Positions 1,310-10,146 of a DNA stretch of 64,000 bases are shown piece after piece. The stretch spans positions 1-64,000 of the forward strand of contig NZ_CYPU01000011.1 of the NCBI RefSeq assembly GCF_001458195.1, in the 5' to 3' direction. Both the position numbers and the translations under genes were made by a program. The number at the start of each line of letters is the position of its first letter. The first letter of the stretch is position 1. This stretch comes from Ruegeria atlantica (lineage in GTDB: Bacteria > Pseudomonadota > Alphaproteobacteria > Rhodobacterales > Rhodobacteraceae). The notes below the pieces were generated by a model that was not told where the DNA came from, made no database searches, and worked only from the letters and a program-made list of their open reading frames with translations.

Positions 1310-2551
1310 GTGAAAATAGCCATAGTCCTATTGAGCCTTCTAACGATAGCTATCACTCCGGTTTCTGCCAGCGAAGAAAGCAAGGTTTGGGAGGCATCGG
1401 ACGCGGCAAATCAGTTCGTTAAAGATACGATTGTACTGGGTATGCTCGCCAGCCCTTATGGAACCGGGTGGACGGAGTACGAGCAGTTGCACACCTATTT
1501 TGAACGCGCGCGCGAAAATGGAATTACGGGGCGCGAAATGACTCTTGCGGCTGCAGACATGTCTTTCGAGACGCTCTTGGAGCAGCACTACCATTTTCGA
1601 GCGGCAATGGCTGAGCAACCGGAAAACTATCTGGTTGTGAATGAGACGCGAGACATCAAGGCTGCTCATGCTCAGGGAAAAACCGCTGTCATCTGGAACA
1701 GTCAGACCGCCACGATCCTAAATGGTGATCTCAGGAAGATGGCAATGCTCAAGGACTTGGGCATCAAAAGCATGATCTTGGCTTATAATGATATTTTCAG
1801 GACCGGGTCGGGCCAGTTGGCGGCCTACAATGGAAATGACATCGGGCTGACGCCTTGGGGCAAGTCGGTTATTGACGAGATGGTTCGTTTCGGAATTCTG
1901 TTGGACCTCAGCCACACCGGATCTCGGACGGCCAATGACGCTATGGCCTATATGGAGAGCAATTATCCCGGCGTTCCATTCGTCTATACCCATTCTGTAA
2001 CTTCGGGTTTGTATCAGAGCGAACCGAACGCGACACCGCGCGGTTGCTATCGAGCTATTCCAGACGATGAAGCACTCAGAGCTGCCGAATCTGGTGGCTA
2101 TGTGTCTCCGACGTTCACTGAGTGGATGATGGACGGCGTTTGGCCAGAGGATATTTCGCCCAAACAAGCGGCCGACATGATCGATTACTATGTGCAGTTA
2201 GTTGGAATAGATCATGTGGGCATCGCTACCGACGACATGTTTTCAACTGAGCTCGTCGTTGAGTTCGCGACCGCAAATGCCAGCATGTATGACGACGGCG
2301 GTTACATGATTGATGCGTTCAACAATGGTGCTACAGGCAATGGCGAGTTAGCCAAGATATTGGCCGCCATTACGGATGATCTTTGGGCACGCGGATACTC
2401 CAACGAAGACCTTGCAAAGATTTATGTTGGCAACAAGATGCGTGTCTACGCTCAGGTCTGGGAGGGGAAACCACCACAACAATTCCTTTTGGAGTATCCA
2501 GAGCGATTGCGTATGCGAGAAGAGTTTCGAGAGCTTTTCCCCACACGCTGA
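1310..2551 (+). CDS. Secreted M19 (membrane dipeptidase)-like protein with an incomplete metal site
   Basis: Related to peptidase M19 (renal dipeptidase family), zinc enzymes that cleave dipeptides. An N-terminal signal peptide ([11 protein letters not shown]...VSAS) predicts export. Family hallmarks are visible: the DLSHTG motif (His202), the THS motif (His228) and [12 protein letters not shown] near residue 308. However, the N-terminal HxD ligand pair is missing where expected (the region reads [12 protein letters not shown]) and the usual bridging Glu is Gln132 (WNSQ), so classical dinuclear dipeptidase activity is doubtful. The GTG at 1310 has a GGGAG ribosome site 8 nt upstream; an in-frame GTG at 1289 is the alternative. 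It lies alone between tuf and rpsJ, a position normally without such a gene. Confidence 0.75.
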
Positions 2552-2619
2552 TTTTCAGTGACAGGCAATTTGCGCTGAAGCTGGTCTGAGAGCTCTAGCG
2601 AGCCCAGTTCAATTCCCCC

Positions 2620-2648
2620 TTGCCAAACCCCATCAACCCCTGTAAATC
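2620..2648 (+). promoter_or_regulatory. Predicted sigma70-type promoter of the S10 (rpsJ) operon
   Basis: TTGCCA (2620-2625), a 17-nt C-rich spacer and TAAATC (2643-2648). The same TTGCCA-N17 layout is found before rpmC and rplO. It predicts a leader of roughly 110 nt before rpsJ. Confidence 0.5.
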
Positions 2649-2674
2649 GCGCGAGTTCTCTACAAGAACATCGA

Positions 2675-2696
2675 GGCGGGGTGATTCCCGCCTTTT
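2675..2696 (+). terminator. Terminator-like hairpin inside the rpsJ leader (possible attenuator)
   Basis: A perfect GGCGGG / CCCGCC stem with a 6-nt loop is followed by TTTT. It lies downstream of the predicted rpsJ promoter and about 70 nt before the rpsJ start, so it would sit in the nascent leader rather than end the upstream gene. In E. coli the S10 leader is an L4-controlled attenuator; a similar role here is inference. It could also simply terminate transcription coming from the M19-like gene. Confidence 0.5.
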
Positions 2697-2767
2697 GGGT
2701 TCGAAGAGGGTTGGCGATGCGCGCTTGTCCTCCTCTCAACCTCAACGCCTGATAAAAGGCTGTTATA

Positions 2768-3082
2768 ATGCAAAGCCAAAACATCCGTATTCGGCTGAAG
2801 GCATTTGACTATCGCGTTCTGGATGCCAGCACGCAAGAGATCGTCAACACTGCCAAGCGGACCGGCGCGAACGTGCGCGGCCCGATCCCGCTGCCGAACA
2901 AGATTGAGAAGTTCACGGTTCTACGTGGCCCTCACGTTGACAAGAAATCCCGCGACCAGTTCGAGATCCGCACGCACAAGCGTCTGCTCGACATCGTTGA
3001 TCCGACCCCCCAGACCGTTGACGCGCTCATGAAGCTCGACCTCGCCGCTGGTGTGGACGTCGAGATCAAGCTGCAGTCGTAA
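2768..3082 (+). CDS. rpsJ: 30S ribosomal protein S10
   Basis: Component of the 30S head and, with NusB, of antitermination complexes. The protein has the full family length (104 residues) with the conserved core [45 protein letters not shown] and the C-terminal [12 protein letters not shown]. It is the first gene of the S10 group and is followed after 18 nt by rplC, so the two are surely co-transcribed. Start is ATG after a weak AAGGCTG ribosome site. Confidence 0.97.
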
Positions 3083-3100
3083 GATCGGAGGGTATAGATT

Positions 3101-3826
3101 ATGCGCTCTGGTATTATCGCAAAAAAAGTTGGCATGACCCGCCTGTTCATGGAAGACGGCAAGCAGATTCCTGTGACCGTTCTTCACCTGGACGGCCTGC
3201 AGGTCGTTGCACAGCGGACCGCTGACAAAGACGGCTACACCGCCGTTCAGTTGGGTGCTGGTGCGGCCAAGGCAAAACGCACCTCGAAGGCCATGCGCGG
3301 TCACTATGCCGCTGCAAAGGTCGAGCCCAAGCGTAAGCTGGCCGAGTTCCGCGTCTCTGAAGATGGCCTGATCGAAGTGGGCGCCGAGATTTCAGCAGAA
3401 CACTTCCTGGAAGGTCAGAAAGTTGACGTTTCGGGCACCTCGATCGGTAAAGGCTTTGCCGGTGCAATGAAGCGCCACAACTTCGGTGGTCTTCGCGCCT
3501 CGCACGGTGTTTCGATCAGCCACCGTTCGCACGGTTCGACTGGCCAGTGTCAGGATCCGGGCAAGGTTTTCAAAGGCAAGAAGATGGCCGGTCACATGGG
3601 TGCTGCCCGTGTAACCACCCAGAACCTGGAAGTCGTCAAAACCGACGCCGACCGTGGTCTGGTCTTCATCAAAGGCGCCGTTCCCGGACCGAAATCGGGC
3701 TGGGTTACCGTCAAGGACGCCGTCAAGAAGAAAGCACCGGAAGGCCTGCCTTTCCCGGCAGCCGTAAAAGGTGCTGCAACTGAAGCACCTGCGGAAGAAG
3801 CTCCCGCGGAAGGTGGTGAAGCATGA
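3101..3826 (+). CDS. rplC: 50S ribosomal protein L3
   Basis: Early-assembly 23S rRNA-binding protein whose internal loop reaches near the peptidyl-transferase centre. N-terminal [16 protein letters not shown] and the loop with [40 protein letters not shown] are typical. The last ~35 residues form an Ala/Glu/Pro-rich tail ([13 protein letters not shown]), common in Rhodobacteraceae L3 and probably disordered. GGAGGG ribosome site lies 10 nt upstream of ATG. It overlaps rplD by 4 nt (ATGA), indicating translational coupling. Confidence 0.97.
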
Positions 3827-4440
3827 AACTTGATGTAATCAAACTGGACGGCGGCAAAGCCGGCAACATCGAGCTGGACGCCGATCTGTTCGGCCTCGAG
3901 CCGCGCGCGGACATCCTGCACCGTGTGGTCCGTTGGCAGCGCAACAACGCGCAGGCCGGCACCCACAAGGTCAAGACCCGCTCGGAAGTGTCCTACTCGA
4001 CCAAGAAGATCTATCGCCAAAAAGGCACCGGTGGCGCACGCCACGGCGCACGCTCGGCACCGATCTTCCGGGGTGGTGGCGTTTACAAAGGTCCGGTCGT
4101 GCGTTCGCATGGTCATGACCTGCCGAAGAAGTTCCGTAAACTCGGTCTGCGCCACGCGCTGTCTGCCAAAATGGCAGCTGGTGAACTGGTTGTGATCGAA
4201 AACGCCGAAGCCGAAGGCAAGACCGCTGCACTGGCCAAACAGGTTGCAAACCTGGGCTGGAAGCGCGCTCTGGTCATCGACGGGGCGACCGTGAACGAAG
4301 GTTTCCTGAAGGCGTCGCGCAACATCGAAGGTCTGGATATCCTGCCGTCGATGGGTGCAAACGTTTATGACATCCTTAAGCGTGACACTCTGGTGCTCAC
4401 CAAAGCGGCTGTCGAAGCACTGGAGGCTCGTCTGAAATGA
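3823..4440 (+). CDS. rplD: 50S ribosomal protein L4
   Basis: Binds 23S rRNA and lines the exit tunnel. Full length (205 residues), with the tunnel-loop segment [35 protein letters not shown] compressed in the middle and a normal C-terminal domain. In enterobacteria L4 also represses its own operon through the S10 leader; the leader hairpin at 2675 makes this worth testing here. It overlaps both neighbours by ATGA, so L3-L4-L23 are translationally coupled. Confidence 0.97.
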
Positions 4441-4733
4441 GCGCGAAGGCAGAACACTACGACGTGATCCGCAAGCCGATCATCACTGAAAAGTCGACCA
4501 TGGCGTCTGAGAACGGCGCGATTGTCTTTGAAGTGGCGATCGACAGCAACAAACCGCAGATCAAAGAAGCGGTTGAATCGCTGTTTGGTGTCAAGGTGAA
4601 GGCGGTCAACACCACCATCACCAAAGGCAAGGTCAAGCGGTTCCGCGGCCAGTTGGGCAAGCGGAAAGACGTCAAAAAAGCATATGTGACCCTGGAAGAG
4701 GGTAATACCATCGACGTAAGCACCGGTCTCTGA
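4437..4733 (+). CDS. rplW: 50S ribosomal protein L23
   Basis: Sits at the exit of the ribosomal tunnel and docks trigger factor and SRP. Complete at 98 residues: [14 protein letters not shown] at the N-terminus, [13 protein letters not shown], then [19 protein letters not shown] and the end STGL. In most bacteria rplB follows directly; here a terminator follows and rplB is 4.6 kb away. The last ~100 bp of this gene are the source of three diverged copies downstream (5877, 7190 and 7611), which makes the 3' end of rplW an apparent insertion hotspot. Confidence 0.97.
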
Positions 4734-4756
4734 TTGGACCCGTCTGTGGCAAAAAC

Positions 4757-4789
4757 AAAAGGCCCCTGCATCAGCAGGGGCCTTTTTTT
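4757..4789 (+). terminator. Rho-independent terminator after rplW
   Basis: Perfect stem GGCCCCTGC / GCAGGGGCC with an ATCA loop and seven T, 25 nt after the rplW stop. Decayed hairpins occupy the same relative position after the rplW tail copies at 5877 and 7190. Confidence 0.93.
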
Positions 4790-4867
4790 GTTGGCGCAGC
4801 TCATCTGGCCGCGTTGAATTTGGCCCGGACCTGTGCACAGTGACCTAAAGGCAGTGAGACGGGTGAT

Positions 4868-5878
4868 ATGCAGGCTGAACAGCAGGTTCGCGATTTCGGG
4901 AAAACCCGGGATGGTCAGATCGTCAGAAGCATCGATATTGGGCAGGGGGCGCTTTCTGCGCGTATCCTGACCTATGGCGCAACGTTGCAGGATCTGCGTT
5001 TGCAGGGTTTTGAGCATCCTCTGATATTGGGGTGGCCGGAGATTGCAGGCTATGAAGACAGCACTGCTTACCTAGGAGCCATGGTGGGCCGTTGTGCCAA
5101 TCGGATCGCGCGCGCGTCATACAGTCTGGATGGCGCTAGCTACCAGCTGGATCGCAATTATTTGGGCACTCATACGTTGCACGGCGGAACGCAAGGTATG
5201 GATTGTCTGGTCTGGGAAATTTCCAGCGTTACACCGGGCGCGGTCACTTTGCAGCTGACCCTGCCTGATGGCCACATGGGCTTTGGCGGCGACTTGGAAG
5301 TGGCGGTGACCTTCCGAGTCGAGGCGGACGCTACATTGAGTATCGAAATGGAAGCGCGGACAACGTCGGCAAGCCTATGCAATCTGACCCCGCATATCTA
5401 TTTCAACCTCGACGGTGGCACAGACATCCGCCAGCACGAACTAATGGTGCGCGCTGAACGCTACACCCCTCTTGACGGGGACCTCATTCCCACAGGTGAA
5501 GCGCTTAGCGTTGCGGGCACGCCCTTTGATCTGCGGTCATCGCGACCTTTGGGGGGCTGGGCATACGATCACAATTTCTGCCTGTCCGATCAGCGTCTGC
5601 CTTGTCGTCCTGTGGCGACGCTGACCGGGTCGTCCTCAGGTCTTTCGATGCAGCTCGAGACGACCGAGCCGGGTTTGCAGGTCTATTCCGGTTCGTCTTT
5701 GGATGAAGGTCCACGCATTGGCTTGGGCGGCCGACCCTACGGCCCTTATTCTGGCGTCGCTTTGGAACCACAGGTCTGGCCCGATTCAATCAACCAGCAA
5801 GGGTTTCCAAGTGCGGTATTGCGCAAGGGTCAAACCTATCGCCATGTTTCGCGATACGTGTTTCAGAGCGAGGTTTAA
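4868..5878 (+). CDS. galM: Aldose 1-epimerase (mutarotase)
   Basis: Interconverts alpha and beta anomers of hexoses in the cytoplasm. The galactose-mutarotase beta-sandwich signature is complete: NRI at residues 78-80, LHGG with His105, PHIYFNL with catalytic His176, DHNF with Asp234 and the catalytic base Glu300 in ALEPQVWPDS. Length (336 aa) is normal for the family. It stands alone, with no sugar catabolic genes beside it, between rplW and rplB. Its stop codon falls directly on the start of a diverged rplW tail copy. The gene symbol is by family; the natural substrate is unknown. Confidence 0.9.
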   Translation: MQAEQQVRDFGKTRDGQIVRSIDIGQGALSARILTYGATLQDLRLQGFEHPLILGWPEIAGYEDSTAYLGAMVGRCANRIARASYSLDGASYQLDRNYLGTHTLHGGTQGMDCLVWEISSVTPGAVTLQLTLPDGHMGFGGDLEVAVTFRVEADATLSIEMEARTTSASLCNLTPHIYFNLDGGTDIRQHELMVRAERYTPLDGDLIPTGEALSVAGTPFDLRSSRPLGGWAYDHNFCLSDQRLPCRPVATLTGSSSGLSMQLETTEPGLQVYSGSSLDEGPRIGLGGRPYGPYSGVALEPQVWPDSINQQGFPSAVLRKGQTYRHVSRYVFQSEV

Positions 5879-6036
5879 GGTCAGGCGGTTCCATAGCCAG
5901 TTGGGTCGCCGGAAAAGGGACAAAAAAAGCATTTTTGATCTAGGCAGAGGGTTACACTATCGATGTAAATACCTATCTCTGATCGGATCCGCCTACGGAT
6001 AAGCGTGAGGGTCCCCGCGAAAGCGGAGGTTTTCTT
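5877..6036 (+). repeat. Diverged copy 1 of the rplW 3' end plus terminator
   Basis: Aligns with rplW 4629-4790 starting at the shared AAGGTCA right at the galM stop codon; about 73% identity by hand count over ~111 nt, with a 1-nt insertion that destroys the reading frame. The hairpin CCCCGC-GAAA-GCGGAGG followed by TTTTC (6011-6036) occupies the terminator position. The following 115 nt up to the desaturase start show no recognisable gene. Confidence 0.88.
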
Positions 6037-6151
6037 GAGCAACAACACCAGAGAAAATGAGCGCGACACATTCGCCTCAGCCAGAATTCGCTTGCTATGC
6101 CGGATCGGTAGTCTATGCGGTTTCTACAAACATAAGTGACATGGCAGGCGC

Positions 6152-7186
6152 ATGACAAAACCCTATCTCTCGACCCCGGACAAACCGGATGTGACCGCCG
6201 CGCGGGATTGGGTTACGACACTTGCCAAATACCGCGAGCCGAACCAGTGGCGCAGCTCCTTTGAGCTGGGTGTCAGTATTATCCCTTTCTTCGTGCTATG
6301 GGCGCTGTCCTGGATGTCGCTTTCGGTTAGCTATTGGTTGGCTTTTGCGATTGCCGTTCTCAACGCGGCCTTCCTGCTGCGCTTGTTTGCGATCCAGCAT
6401 GATTGTGGGCACGGAGCGTTCTTCAAGAACCGGTCGGTCAGCGACTGGGTTGGGCGGGTCATTGGTGTATTGACCTTGACGCCGTATGACGTCTGGCGCC
6501 GCACGCATTCCAACCATCACAACAGCTCGGGCAATTTGGACAAACGGGGAATGGGCGATATTCACACTTTGACAGTCGCTGAGTACCGTTCAAAGACGCC
6601 CATGAACCGGTTCTGGTATCGGGTTTATCGCAACCCCATTACTCTTTTTGTCCTTGGCCCCGGCTATCTGTTTCTGTTCCAGAACCGCCTCCCGTTGGGT
6701 TTGACGGGCAGCGTCAGGTTCTGGATCAGCGCGATGGGCACCAACCTTGCCATTCTGGCTGCGCTCGTGGCCGTATACTATTTTGGCGGCCTGATGCCGG
6801 TGCTGCTGATCTTTCTGCCTTCGACCCTGATTGCCGCGACTGCGGGCGTGTGGCTGTTCTATGTGCAGCATCAGTTCGAAGACACGCACTGGGATGCTGA
6901 TAAGGACTGGCAACTGCATGAGGCTGCCTTGCACGGCAGCTCGCATTACATCCTGCCATCTGTGCTGCAGTGGTTCAGCGCCAACATCGGCATCCACCAC
7001 GTGCACCACCTGTATAGCCGCATCCCGTTCTATCGCCTGACCGAAGTGCTGCGCGATCATGATGAGCTGGCCAACAGCAACAAGATGACCATCCGTGAGA
7101 GCCTCGCGAATGCACGGTTGCACCTGTGGGACGAAAATAACCGCCGTTTGTTGTCCTTCGCTGAGGCGCGTGCGCTGTATGGGTGA
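6152..7186 (+). CDS. Membrane fatty acid desaturase (omega-6/Delta12 type)
   Basis: Membrane di-iron enzyme that introduces a cis double bond into an acyl chain. The three histidine boxes are intact: HDCGH at residues 83-87, HSNHH at 119-123 and HHVHH at 282-286. Hydrophobic segments lie near residues 40-80, 162-178 and 190-236, fitting two helical hairpins. Length (344 aa) is typical. No ferredoxin or reductase partner is adjacent. It is the second single gene in the rplW-rplB gap and is followed 3 nt after its stop by another rplW tail copy. The regiospecificity cannot be read from the sequence. Confidence 0.92.
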   Translation: MTKPYLSTPDKPDVTAARDWVTTLAKYREPNQWRSSFELGVSIIPFFVLWALSWMSLSVSYWLAFAIAVLNAAFLLRLFAIQHDCGHGAFFKNRSVSDWVGRVIGVLTLTPYDVWRRTHSNHHNSSGNLDKRGMGDIHTLTVAEYRSKTPMNRFWYRVYRNPITLFVLGPGYLFLFQNRLPLGLTGSVRFWISAMGTNLAILAALVAVYYFGGLMPVLLIFLPSTLIAATAGVWLFYVQHQFEDTHWDADKDWQLHEAALHGSSHYILPSVLQWFSANIGIHHVHHLYSRIPFYRLTEVLRDHDELANSNKMTIRESLANARLHLWDENNRRLLSFAEARALYG

Positions 7187-7189
7187 GGG

Positions 7190-7340
7190 GTGTTCCGCCG
7201 GGTGGAGCACAACCGGAAAGACGTCAAGAAATCACATGTGACCCGTGAAGAAGGTAACACCACCGACGTACCCTTCGGCCCCTGATCGGAACTGCCCTTG
7301 GAAAAAGACGAAAGCCCCCACGCAAGCGGTGGTTTTTTGT
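7190..7340 (+). repeat. Diverged copy 2 of the rplW 3' end plus terminator
   Basis: Aligns without gaps to rplW from GTTCCGC (4640; here 7192); 75 of 99 nt identical by hand count. The rplW reading frame and TGA stop are kept: RKDVKKSHVTREEGNTTDV...P then stop. A hairpin (CCACGC-AA-GCGGTGG) plus six T (7315-7338) sits at the terminator position. Confidence 0.9.
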
Positions 7341-7431
7341 TATTTGAATGTCTGTTCTGAACTTGCTCTGTCAGATTTGCCCCGCGAAGCTGCCGTTGCT
7401 TCGAGTGCACAGAGCAGATAGGCATACACGT

Positions 7432-7608
7432 ATGAAACATGTCCCCAAAGAAACAACAGATGAGGCCCTTATTCAGGAGTTCCTGGATAAAGGAGGCAAA
7501 GTCAGCGTCGGCAAAACCAAACCCGCGCCTGCAGAGCTGGGTTTGAGCAAGAATGTCTGGAACGCCAAACTGACCAAAGAAGAGAAGGCCGCGCGCGACA
7601 AGAAGTGA
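7432..7608 (+). CDS. Small cytoplasmic protein of unknown function (58 aa)
   Basis: The peptide begins MKHVPKETTDEALIQEFL and contains VSVGKTKPAPAELGLSKN and a basic C-terminus with KLTKEEKAARDKK. It is highly charged, without a signal peptide or membrane segment; I recall similar unnamed small proteins in Rhodobacteraceae but cannot assign a function. The ATG at 7432 is preferred because a further upstream ATG (7348) would place the start inside a region without coding character directly after a terminator hairpin. It is the third single gene followed immediately by an rplW tail copy. Confidence 0.6.
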   Translation: MKHVPKETTDEALIQEFLDKGGKVSVGKTKPAPAELGLSKNVWNAKLTKEEKAARDKK

Positions 7609-7610
7609 TC

Positions 7611-7750
7611 GTGCGAGGCCAGTTGGGAAAGCGGAAAGACGTTAAGAAAGCATATACGACCCTGGAAGAGCGGAGCACCATCGACGTGTTTACCGGTCTC
7701 TGATCGAATCCGTCTTTGGGGAGTTGGGTGCGTAAGGAAGTTGGTTTTTT
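7611..7750 (+). repeat. Diverged copy 3 of the rplW 3' end
   Basis: The best preserved copy: 83 of 99 nt identical to rplW from GGCCAGTTGGG (4647) by hand count. The rplW frame and stop are intact: [27 protein letters not shown], stop at 7702-7704. It begins 3 nt after the stop of the 58-aa gene. Only a T-run (7744-7752) is left where the terminator would be. From 7751 to 7947 the DNA is AT-rich with no recognisable gene. Confidence 0.92.
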
Positions 7751-7947: not shown

Positions 7948-8775
7948 GTGAATAGAAGCTTTGGTCAGTTTGATACTCTACCTGCCGAAGTCAATTTTGA
8001 CTTTAGGTACCTTAGTTTTGTGAGGCCTTCGGGAGTGGTGTTTCTAAGCAACCTCTCCAGATTTCTTCTTCGTAAAGGGTGCGCGGTCACTTACGGCAAT
8101 ATGAACAAGATGTCCGAAGCGATACGTTTCTTGGACGATTCCTTGTTCTTCGAGCAGCATATGGGTTCTAAGCTGAATGCTTGGAGTAACCCTCGTGCAA
8201 CTACGCAACCTTTAATCGAGGTGCGGCACACGGAAAGTCACGATTGGGTTCGGAACACGTTTGTTCCTTGGCTTTCGGGGTGTTCAAAAATTGCCCAACA
8301 TGATCTTGGCGAGTTGGCGACCTGTCTGTCGGAGCTCTTCAACAACATTGATGATCACACAGAGTTCGACGTCGGCAGCGTATTTGCACAGTGGTACCCG
8401 CAAGAAGAACGCGTAATTGTTGCTGTTGCAGATTTTGGTGTTGGAATCCCGACGACCGTTGGGCGCGTTTGTGAGGGCCTGTCAGATAGCGAAGCCATAA
8501 TAAAGGCATTTGAAGATGAGTTTACATCGCAGAGCACTCCCAGAAACAGAGGTATCGGGCTACATTTCTTACTACAAAACGTAGTGCAGAATTTGTCTGG
8601 AAAACTTGAAGTTAACTCCGCGAATGGTGCGGTGGTGTTCGAAAAAGTTGGCAATTTGTTAAATGCCGTGCCGTATACACAAAACGGGTACTGTCCGGGG
8701 ACGCTAATTGTCTTGGAGTTTAACACGTCGGCAATTGAGCGAACAGACGGCGATCTGGAGGATTTGGAATGGTAG
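7948..8775 (+). CDS. STAS-like/HATPase protein (anti-sigma-factor-kinase-like ATPase)
   Basis: Residues ~15-70 resemble a STAS-like fold (FDFRYLSFVRPSGVVFLSNL), and residues ~115-220 form a GHKL ATPase domain: N-box Glu129...Asn132 in LSELFNNIDDHT, G1 box DFGVG at 162-166 and G2 box RGIGL at 201-205. No His-phosphoacceptor (HisKA) domain or membrane segment is seen, so it is not a classical sensor kinase. It overlaps the next gene by 7 nt. Known GHKL/STAS pairs (for example SpoIIAB/SpoIIAA type) act as phosphorylation-controlled partner switches; a similar role is inference. The GTG start is uncertain. Base composition is lower in GC than the neighbours, suggesting recent transfer. Confidence 0.72.
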   Translation: MNRSFGQFDTLPAEVNFDFRYLSFVRPSGVVFLSNLSRFLLRKGCAVTYGNMNKMSEAIRFLDDSLFFEQHMGSKLNAWSNPRATTQPLIEVRHTESHDWVRNTFVPWLSGCSKIAQHDLGELATCLSELFNNIDDHTEFDVGSVFAQWYPQEERVIVAVADFGVGIPTTVGRVCEGLSDSEAIIKAFEDEFTSQSTPRNRGIGLHFLLQNVVQNLSGKLEVNSANGAVVFEKVGNLLNAVPYTQNGYCPGTLIVLEFNTSAIERTDGDLEDLEW

Positions 8776-9065
8776 TGTACATTCGAGACATTGTTGACGG
8801 GTGTGATACCAATGCACAAGGCGCCGTGTTGAGTGCTCTGCTGGATGCCAACTTAAGTAAAATGCAAAGCGTTACGCTTGATTTTACTGACGTTTTCAAT
8901 GTGACTTCTTCCTTTGTGAACACCGCATTTGTAGACTTGATGGACCGGCATGACTTGGCCCAGTTTAAGCAGCATGTGAAGTTAAGGAACGTAAATCGTC
9001 AGATAGCTACGTTGGTAAAGTCTCGGTTAGCTTCAATGGAAGCCAAGTCGGCTATGGCAGCTTAA
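8769..9065 (+). CDS. STAS-like domain protein (DUF4325 type)
   Basis: Small protein (98 aa) whose core, VTLDFTDVFNVTSSFVNTAFVDLM, matches the STAS-like DUF4325 pattern of a strand, then a loop with Asn-Val-Thr-Ser-Ser, then a helix. It overlaps the end of the GHKL ATPase gene, so the two are translationally coupled and very probably act together. The Ser/Thr-rich loop is where a phosphoacceptor would lie in an anti-anti-sigma factor; no experiment is known to me for this family. Low-GC base composition is shared with its partner. Confidence 0.72.
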   Translation: MVVYIRDIVDGCDTNAQGAVLSALLDANLSKMQSVTLDFTDVFNVTSSFVNTAFVDLMDRHDLAQFKQHVKLRNVNRQIATLVKSRLASMEAKSAMAA

Positions 9066-9172: not shown

Positions 9173-9278
9173 GGCCTCGGATTCGTTCCGGGGCCTATGA
9201 TATTTGAAACCGGGGACCTTCGGGGCCCTATACCCTTGGCACCTACGGGGGCCTATCACATAGCGGGGAAATCCCCGC
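9173..9278 (+). promoter_or_regulatory. Structured leader before rplB: four successive hairpins
   Basis: Three hairpins in a row carry UNCG-type loops and end in a GGGSCCTAT-like sequence: GGCCTCGGA/TTCCGGGGCC (loop TTCG, near 9173-9195), GGGACC-TTCG-GGGCCC (near 9211-9228) and GGCACC-TACG-GGGGCC (near 9239-9254). A fourth, GCGGGGA/TCCCCGC, follows at 9263-9278, 25 nt before the rplB start. The T-rich stretch 9100-9118 and a TATAGA at 9129 could belong to a promoter, but I see no convincing -35 box. No rplW tail copy is visible in this stretch. Confidence 0.5.
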
Positions 9279-9303
9279 ACTTGCTAAACGGAAGACAGAA
9301 AGC

Positions 9304-10146
9304 ATGGCACTCAAGTCGTACAAGCCGACGACGCCGGGCCAGCGCGGGCTGGTGCTGATCGACCGTTCGGAGCTTTGGAAAGGACGTCCGGTCAAGTCTC
9401 TCACTGAGGGTTTGACCAAATCGGGCGGCCGGAACAACACCGGACGGATCACTTCACGCCGCCGCGGCGGTGGCGCAAAGCGTCTCTACCGGATCGTTGA
9501 CTTCAAACGGAACAAATTTGATGTCGCGGCAACCGTTGAACGGATCGAATATGACCCGAACCGGACCGCATTCATCGCACTGGTAAAATACGAAGACGGC
9601 GAGCAGGCATATATCCTGGCTCCGCAGCGTCTGGCTGTTGGTGACAAAGTCGTGGCATCTGCCAAGGCTGACATCAAGCCGGGCAACGCAATGCCGTTTT
9701 CGGGCATGCCTATCGGTACCATCGTCCACAACATCGAGATGAAGCCTGGTAAAGGCGGTCAGATCGCACGTGCGGCCGGTACATACGCTCAGTTCGTTGG
9801 TCGCGATGGCGGCTACGCTCAGATCCGTCTGAGCTCGGGCGAGCTGCGCATGGTCCGTCAGGAATGCATGGCCACCGTTGGTGCCGTGTCCAACCCCGAC
9901 AACTCGAACCAGAACCTCGGTAAAGCCGGTCGTATGCGCCACAAAGGCGTTCGTCCGTCGGTTCGTGGTGTTGCAATGAACCCGATCGATCACCCGCACG
10001 GTGGTGGTGAAGGTCGTACCTCGGGTGGCCGTACACCGGTTACACCGTGGGGTAAGGACACCAAGGGTAAGCGTACCCGCAACAAGAACAAAGCGTCCCA
10101 GAAGCTGATCATCCGCTCGCGGCACGCCAAGAAGAAGGGACGTTAA
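9304..10146 (+). CDS. rplB: 50S ribosomal protein L2
   Basis: Binds 23S rRNA domain IV and is needed for subunit association and peptidyl transfer. Starts [17 protein letters not shown], contains [20 protein letters not shown] and the C-terminal [24 protein letters not shown], including the conserved functional His. Full length, 280 aa. It restarts the ribosomal operon after the inserted genes and is followed by rpsS after 3 nt. Confidence 0.98.

Follow-up and report, generated by a model that had tools for sequence, protein, structure and literature searches.

The gap between rplW and rplB in Ruegeria is probably a stack of cargo units that was built by displacement of the 3' end of rplW and then shuffled by homologous recombination. 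The window, a stretch of 64,000 nucleotides from Ruegeria atlantica (contig NZ_CYPU01000011.1), covers the S10 region, and the best named relatives of its rplW belong to Shimia, Ruegeria and Phaeobacter. Between rplW and rplB, which border the array, lie in order an aldose 1-epimerase (module M), a fatty acid desaturase (module D), a small open reading frame (module S) and a pair of HATPase and DUF4325 proteins. One copy of the rplW end is found 3' of each of M, D and S, and these copies are referred to as tails 1, 2 and 3. The features of the array are the following:

4437-4733, + strand: resident rplW (open reading frame list); its last ~75 nt probably came with the first cargo, M, as judged by co-variation
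4757-4786, + strand: terminator of the resident rplW (terminator scan: 13-pair stem, then a T run)
4868-5878, + strand: cargo M, aldose 1-epimerase (Pfam PF01263, 3e-71)
5877-6037, + strand: tail 1, putative displaced rplW end with terminator region, belonging with the downstream D (profile match, 99.8 bits)
6152-7186, + strand: cargo D, fatty acid desaturase (Pfam PF00487, 3e-36)
7193-7347, + strand: tail 2, putative displaced rplW end with terminator region, belonging with the downstream S (profile match, 97.1 bits)
7432-7608, + strand: cargo S, small open reading frame of 58 aa (86 aa from an upstream ATG), without a Pfam match
7614-7719, + strand: tail 3, rplW end, terminator not recognised (repeat of 83% over 106 nt)
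7948-8775, + strand: cargo of the last slot, HATPase-domain protein (Pfam PF02518, 3e-7)
8769-9065, + strand: cargo of the last slot, DUF4325 STAS-like protein (Pfam PF14213, 2e-10)
9237-9301, + strand: L2 ribosomal protein leader, 5' of rplB (Rfam RF03142, 67.1 bits, gathering score 37.8)
9304-10146, + strand: rplB, right border of the array (open reading frame list)

The three repeats are real and far beyond chance: tail 1 is 74.6% identical to rplW over 118 nt (E 2e-16), tail 2 is 77.3% identical over 110 nt (E 1e-18), and tail 3 is 83.0% identical over 106 nt (E 3e-27). No other gene end in the window is repeated, as judged by a search with the ends of all open reading frames of 80 aa or longer. 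The preliminary description of this DNA was accurate as to the form of tails 2 and 3: both align with rplW without gaps over the last 30 codons, both retain the TGA stop (7283-7285 and 7701-7703), and tail 3, translated over 29 residues, reads as quoted. Elsewhere in the window, an open reading frame of 420 aa (1289-2551) lies between tuf and rpsJ and looks, by eye, like a membrane dipeptidase.

Ancestry and drift of the tails

rplW was found in 53 of the 54 genomes of the genus. The stretch downstream of it was taken for 52 congeners, which together with the window gives 53 loci; rplB is visible in 48 of these and absent from the stretches of L038, L039, L066, L079 and L083. A profile of resident ends detected 52 further copies of the rplW end scoring more than 20 bits, spread over 33 of the 53 loci, a count that includes six weak tails which may be partly due to chance (L034 at 1996, L044, L045, L056, L071 and L080; 22-37 bits) and whose members are not independent, since tails of different genomes are partly inherited together. 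Among 80 named loci, the profile found an extra rplW end above 15 bits in 13; six of these lie outside Ruegeria and KLH11 (L099, L111, L134, L140, L154 and L155), two of them weak. Such copies are rare outside the genus; a second match to the rplW protein is present in only 4 of 248 genomes of the family: that of the window, G075, G172 and G212, where it is a full-length rplW. One of the loci surveyed, L148, is titled Nocardioides marinus and has an rplW 93% identical to that of the window, so the record or its title is probably mislabelled. In L048, an insert of ~145 nt containing only a G+C-rich hairpin stands between rplW and the tail (798-1021), and similar hairpins precede tails in L049 and L057.

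The end of the resident gene varies together with the cargo that follows it. This was examined by permutation in the 30 loci with an assigned first module (the other 23 have none), comprising 435 pairs, 103 of them with the same module, and with correction for distance in the first 150 nt of the gene. Loci that share their first module resemble each other more in the last 75 nt of rplW (p 0.0002) and in the flank from +1 to +25 (p 0.0002); bases 150-195 of the gene co-vary weakly (p 0.03), and no co-variation with the first module was detected from -102 to -75 (p 0.21). The co-variation of the last 75 nt suggests that the newest cargo most likely brought the current rplW end, and that a tail is a previously used end.

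Collinearity links the tails to the DNA behind them. More than half of the tails (29/52) are collinear over at least 300 nt with the working rplW end of another genome and the DNA that follows it. Tail 1 and D of the window match the resident end and D of L074 (84.8% over 1300 nt), tail 2 and S match the resident end and S of L077 (77% over 514 nt), and the tail behind S in L032 matches L046 (87.5% over 1300 nt). For the other 23 tails, including tail 3 of the window, no collinearity of at least 300 nt was found with any sampled working end, and tail 3 has no collinear partner past about 110 nt. Sequence distances were compared for the 28 tails with an assigned downstream module (24 of the 52 have none). 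Of these, 27 are closer to a working end that fronts the same downstream module than to their own resident end, and in 27 the mean distance to same-module ends is smaller than that to other-module ends. When single best matches are compared, 11 of the 28, tail 2 of the window among them, lie nearer to a working end of another module than to any of their own module; these tails are mostly of S and Y, modules with three residents each. For all three window tails, the window's own resident comes 39th among the 53 working ends in a maximum-likelihood tree, where the ends closest to these tails are from loci without an assigned module; because the stretch is short and the tree has no support values, it is weaker evidence than collinearity.

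Gene end and downstream gene thus travel together by three measures, namely co-variation, distance and collinearity, which is a feature of displacement as known from rhs loci. These sequence comparisons support the view that the tails are former working rplW ends and do not descend from the present resident end. A tail accordingly belongs with its downstream cargo; the arrival of the upstream cargo, which brought a new rplW end, would have displaced it. The preliminary description had proposed that tails 2 and 3 were imported with their cargo after diverging in other lineages, where they still belonged to working rplW genes, and had suggested a phylogeny as the check. It was right about the working-end origin: the tails do not cluster with the resident, and tails 1 and 2 are collinear with congeners. 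It was wrong about the cargo, as tails 1 and 2 go with the downstream and not with the upstream module. Tail 3 may come near to its reading, in that this end may have been imported together with the ATPase/DUF4325 pair behind it.

The same description was also wrong in attributing to tails 2 and 3 a frame constraint that tail 1 lacks, on the ground that many differences fall at third codon positions. Against the resident rplW, tail 2 has 8/8/7 differences at first, second and third positions, with nonsynonymous changes in 12 of 16 changed codons. Tail 3 shows a weak third-position excess against the resident (3/3/8, with synonymous changes in 5 of 9 changed codons), which is gone against the nearest working end among the 53 loci (3/3/3 over the last 75 nt). 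By the latter comparison tail 2 has 4/4/6 and tail 1 has 5/8/5 with one indel, so that with the right reference the codon positions are flat and no constraint is supported. Since the resident end is foreign to the window tails, it is unsuitable as their reference, and the case illustrates how codon-position counts on a gene fragment mislead when they are made against the wrong copy.

Across the genus, the 52 tails carry 227/212/230 substitutions by codon position relative to their nearest working ends (p for flat 0.61), and resident ends compared among themselves carry 1751/1386/5604. The changed codons of the tails are synonymous in 126 and nonsynonymous in 375 cases, or 25.1% synonymous, where 23.6% is the neutral expectation for single random changes. 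As judged by these substitution patterns, the displaced tails are shown to drift neutrally. An indel lies within the last 75 nt in 24 of the 52, and the stop codon is retained in 43. A few fresh tails differ only at synonymous sites (L069, 0/0/4; L072 at 3235, 0/0/1; L075, 0/0/1). A terminator reaches the threshold in 29/52 tails, 52/53 residents and 7/156 shuffled flanks; tails 1 and 2 of the window narrowly pass it and tail 3 fails. No known RNA family was found in the tails with Rfam, where only the L2 leader of rplB reaches its gathering score and the weak matches sit on the rplW terminator.

Cargo modules and their junctions

The same modules recur in different orders, including M-D-S, D-Y-S, M-D-Y-Z and Z-Y-D. 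At 81% identity or more, M, S and Z occur only beside rplW or rplB in the 54 genomes, and D only there in 26 of 30 genomes. Module S is the most informative. All 12 of its full copies in the genus lie beside rplW or rplB (a partial copy in L038 was dropped from the junction count), and all 12 join the tail at the same base: the stop codon, then TCGTG (one variant), then rplW from about -90. Nine different sequences follow these 12 copies and their tails. S may move as a unit, or the tail may serve to exchange the cargo that follows S. Recombination within the rplW repeat is required in both readings, and under both the outermost tail is not necessarily the most decayed. A sulfatase unit (assigned by Pfam) with its tail is found in two contexts, being first behind rplW in L062 and behind D in L164, with 82% identity over 1710 nt. 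In L164 it lies 1.1 Mb from rplW, where desaturase, sulfatase and rplW tail stand together (2452-5425).

The tails begin close to the genes before them. Measured from the stop of the longest preceding open frame, the tail starts at -2 to 8 nt in 34/52 cases and at 9 to 40 nt in 12/52; in the other 6/52 it lies further away or lacks such a frame. The point at which the rplW sequence begins depends on the cargo: mostly -105 to -94 for M, -98 to -94 in 8/12 for D, -90 in 9/11 for S, -91 to -69 for Y and -83 to -42 for Z. Because of this variation, a fixed attachment site was rejected. The event is also seen once in Shimia gijangensis (L140); there the repeat starts at about -135, the two rplW ends are nearly identical (211/225), and the cargo is a PAS/guanylate cyclase protein on the opposite strand, which implies that the join need not carry a stop codon.

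Similar displacement was found at one other gene. In L045, a decayed rplP end lies directly 3' of the stop of a cargo gene (8134-8990), the same event at rplP; the cargo gene has a weak YHS match below the cut-off. Displaced ends were seen at rplP in 1 of 48 loci and at rplB and rplE in none of the 48.

Proteins of the gap were picked by open reading frame length and codon-position G+C, a choice that includes some core genes near inversions. No recombinase family was found among 72 representative gap proteins, for 48 of which all families were considered, and for the other 24 the best 25 of 33, the rest being weaker than E 1.4e-4.

Proposed displacement, alternatives and related systems

In the proposed mechanism, a unit would consist of the last ~75-105 nt of rplW, the terminator, an upstream region and one or more cargo genes. 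Such a unit would enter the 3' part of the resident rplW, so that the gene keeps its own 5' part and adopts the end of the unit, while the old end and terminator are moved downstream past the new cargo, where they form a tail. The crossovers are taken to be homologous recombination of the RecA type within the short rplW repeats, the donor may be circular or one-ended, which would yield the products seen here and is the proposal for rhs tips in the excerpts of PMC2935791, and the vehicle may perhaps be gene transfer agents or transformation. Gene transfer agents are described as conserved in most of the Roseobacter clade in the excerpt of PMC3646047. Later, tails may serve as homology for swapping the cargo behind them. 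If units always entered at rplW, the outermost tail would be expected to be the most decayed; tail 3 of the window is not, and exchange behind tails must therefore be added to the model. The 23 tails without collinearity, the 11 of 28 that are nearer to other-module ends, the tree neighbours without an assigned module and the weak co-variation of bases 150-195 with the first module also speak against the model. The gap probably tolerates insertion because of the strong terminator at the end of rplW and the separate L2 leader of rplB.

The displacement model does not account for the first join of a cargo to the middle of rplW, often a few nucleotides past a stop codon. Homology-facilitated illegitimate recombination is a plausible source of each such join. 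It is also conceivable, though not likely, that the units are cassettes that need no integrase, that is, genes with their own upstream region and stop joined to an rplW end, which circulate genus-wide and stack through ~100 nt of homology with the nearly invariant end as a universal landing site; the gene-precise join would then come from an unrecognised dedicated step.

Three other explanations bear on the tails themselves. Import of tails 2 and 3 from working rplW genes of other lineages together with their cargo, with the coding signature kept, is unlikely. It would fit the low rank of the window's own resident in the tree, the few fresh tails with synonymous differences only and the nine contexts behind S, which suggest that a working end with cargo may have been imported there; against it, the two tails are flat by codon position relative to their nearest working ends, and tails 1 and 2 are continuous with the downstream cargo. 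Tails could instead be the far repeats of site-specific integrative elements at the 3' end of rplW whose integrase was lost or acts in trans, and replacement of gene ends with direct repeats is indeed typical at the 3' ends of ribosomal genes in streptococci according to the excerpts of PMC4701971. The cargo-specific tail starts, the start at about -135 in Shimia, repeats of about 100-225 nt as against the 12-54 bp of the streptococcal elements in those excerpts, and the lack of a recombinase among the families listed for the 72 gap proteins make this quite doubtful.

Local segmental duplication of the rplW end with uneven loss, which would make the tails decayed copies of the resident, is very improbable. 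Two marks of such duplicates had been named in the preliminary description, of which the even spread over codon positions was found and clustering with the resident rplW was not. Duplication with asymmetrical loss has been discussed for gene insertion in the S10 cluster (excerpt of PMC8046335), and the nearly identical ends of L140 would suit it. For the Ruegeria modules it is already contradicted: decayed duplicates of the present resident were rejected because 27 of 28 tails are closer to same-module ends elsewhere, and the confinement of the modules to rplW and rplB at 81% identity or more (for D, in 26 of 30 genomes) leaves no second chromosomal copy as a source. For L140, local duplication is possible.

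The closest known counterparts of the rplW array, as displacement would explain it, are C-terminal displacement at rhs loci and minimal mobile elements. In rhs loci, as described in the excerpts of Jackson et al. (2009, PMC2935791), the gene receives an incoming 3' end, with its downstream gene, in place of its own, old ends are shunted downstream into strings of displaced ends of varying length, and homologous recombination with circular intermediates is proposed. The rplW array resembles this in the replacement of the end, in the strings of displaced ends and in their variable length, an intact rplW being followed by displaced 3'-end copies of varying start. By the same excerpts the rhs C-terminus is itself the variable cargo, a toxin tip. 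The resident rplW, an essential ribosomal gene that serves as the anchor, differs in this respect: its C-terminus is nearly invariant, and the changing part is only the gene linked downstream.

Minimal mobile elements, according to the excerpts of PMC3898611, are cassettes between two conserved genes that move by homologous recombination without a recombinase of their own. The rplW gap is similar in that differing genes stand between conserved neighbours in different strains. Incorporation by homologous recombination alone may apply to it as well, with no recombinase family seen among the 72 gap proteins and one S junction in front of nine contexts. The gap differs in that these elements swap intergenic content, whereas the rplW units accumulate and each leaves a displaced gene end. 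Streptococcal elements at the 3' ends of ribosomal genes such as rplL, rpsI and rpmG (excerpts of PMC4701971) likewise restore the end of a housekeeping gene and leave an end repeat on the far side, but carry integrases and short fixed repeats. In the rplW units no integrase is among the families listed for the gap proteins, there are one or two cargo genes, and the start of the repeat varies with the cargo. Integron cassette arrays are rows of one-gene cassettes in varying order, with the stop codon often adjoining the repeated site. In the rplW array, by contrast, the repeated element consists of the coding end of a housekeeping gene with its terminator, and no integrase was seen in the gap.

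The rplW array can be read as gene-end displacement in a new form, anchored in a ribosomal gene that is nearly invariant and carrying unrelated cargo genes. No description of rplW tails or of cargo stacking in the rplW-rplB gap was found in a limited collection of literature searched by titles and abstract openings. The array suggests that 3'-end displacement, described for variable toxin genes, also serves generally for gaining genes at an essential gene that is nearly invariant. A row of tails would then be a set of scars recording a series of gene acquisitions and which gene arrived in front of which. Such scars allow testing how small accessory genes without integrases, metabolic or anti-phage, enter a highly conserved operon.

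Gene content and rearrangements of the gap

By Pfam, the modules that recur fall into metabolic or regulatory families: epimerase, desaturase, YceI with a MarR regulator, and sulfatase; module Z has no Pfam match. Across strains, different gene cassettes occupy the space between the two conserved genes, as in minimal mobile elements, and the slot adjacent to rplB differs among most genomes. In a scan of 56 gap proteins, a subset of the 72, the PADLOC models matched include AbiU (2), capP (2), TIR-TM, mad3, mad6 and PD-T4-6 (among the best 25 of 93 families), and the matching proteins are predicted anti-phage genes.

Inversions also affect the region. The rplB block is inverted relative to rplW in 9/48 loci (L037, L044, L052, L053, L054, L058, L061, L067 and L080), with borders in the rplW-rplB gap and, in L053, also in the rplP-rplN gap. 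The inverted locus L044 contains an apparent fragment of the rplB start followed by a weak match to the rplW tail (1240-1400; 22 bits). Desaturase copies elsewhere in the genomes were considered as a donor locus and rejected: the upstream flank of L164-L166 is that of the inverted loci L054 and L058, and these copies therefore look like products of inversion.

In the window, the HATPase and DUF4325 pair (7948-9065) forms a separate cluster among the gap proteins of the 48 loci. The slot that it occupies carries matches to anti-phage models in other genomes.
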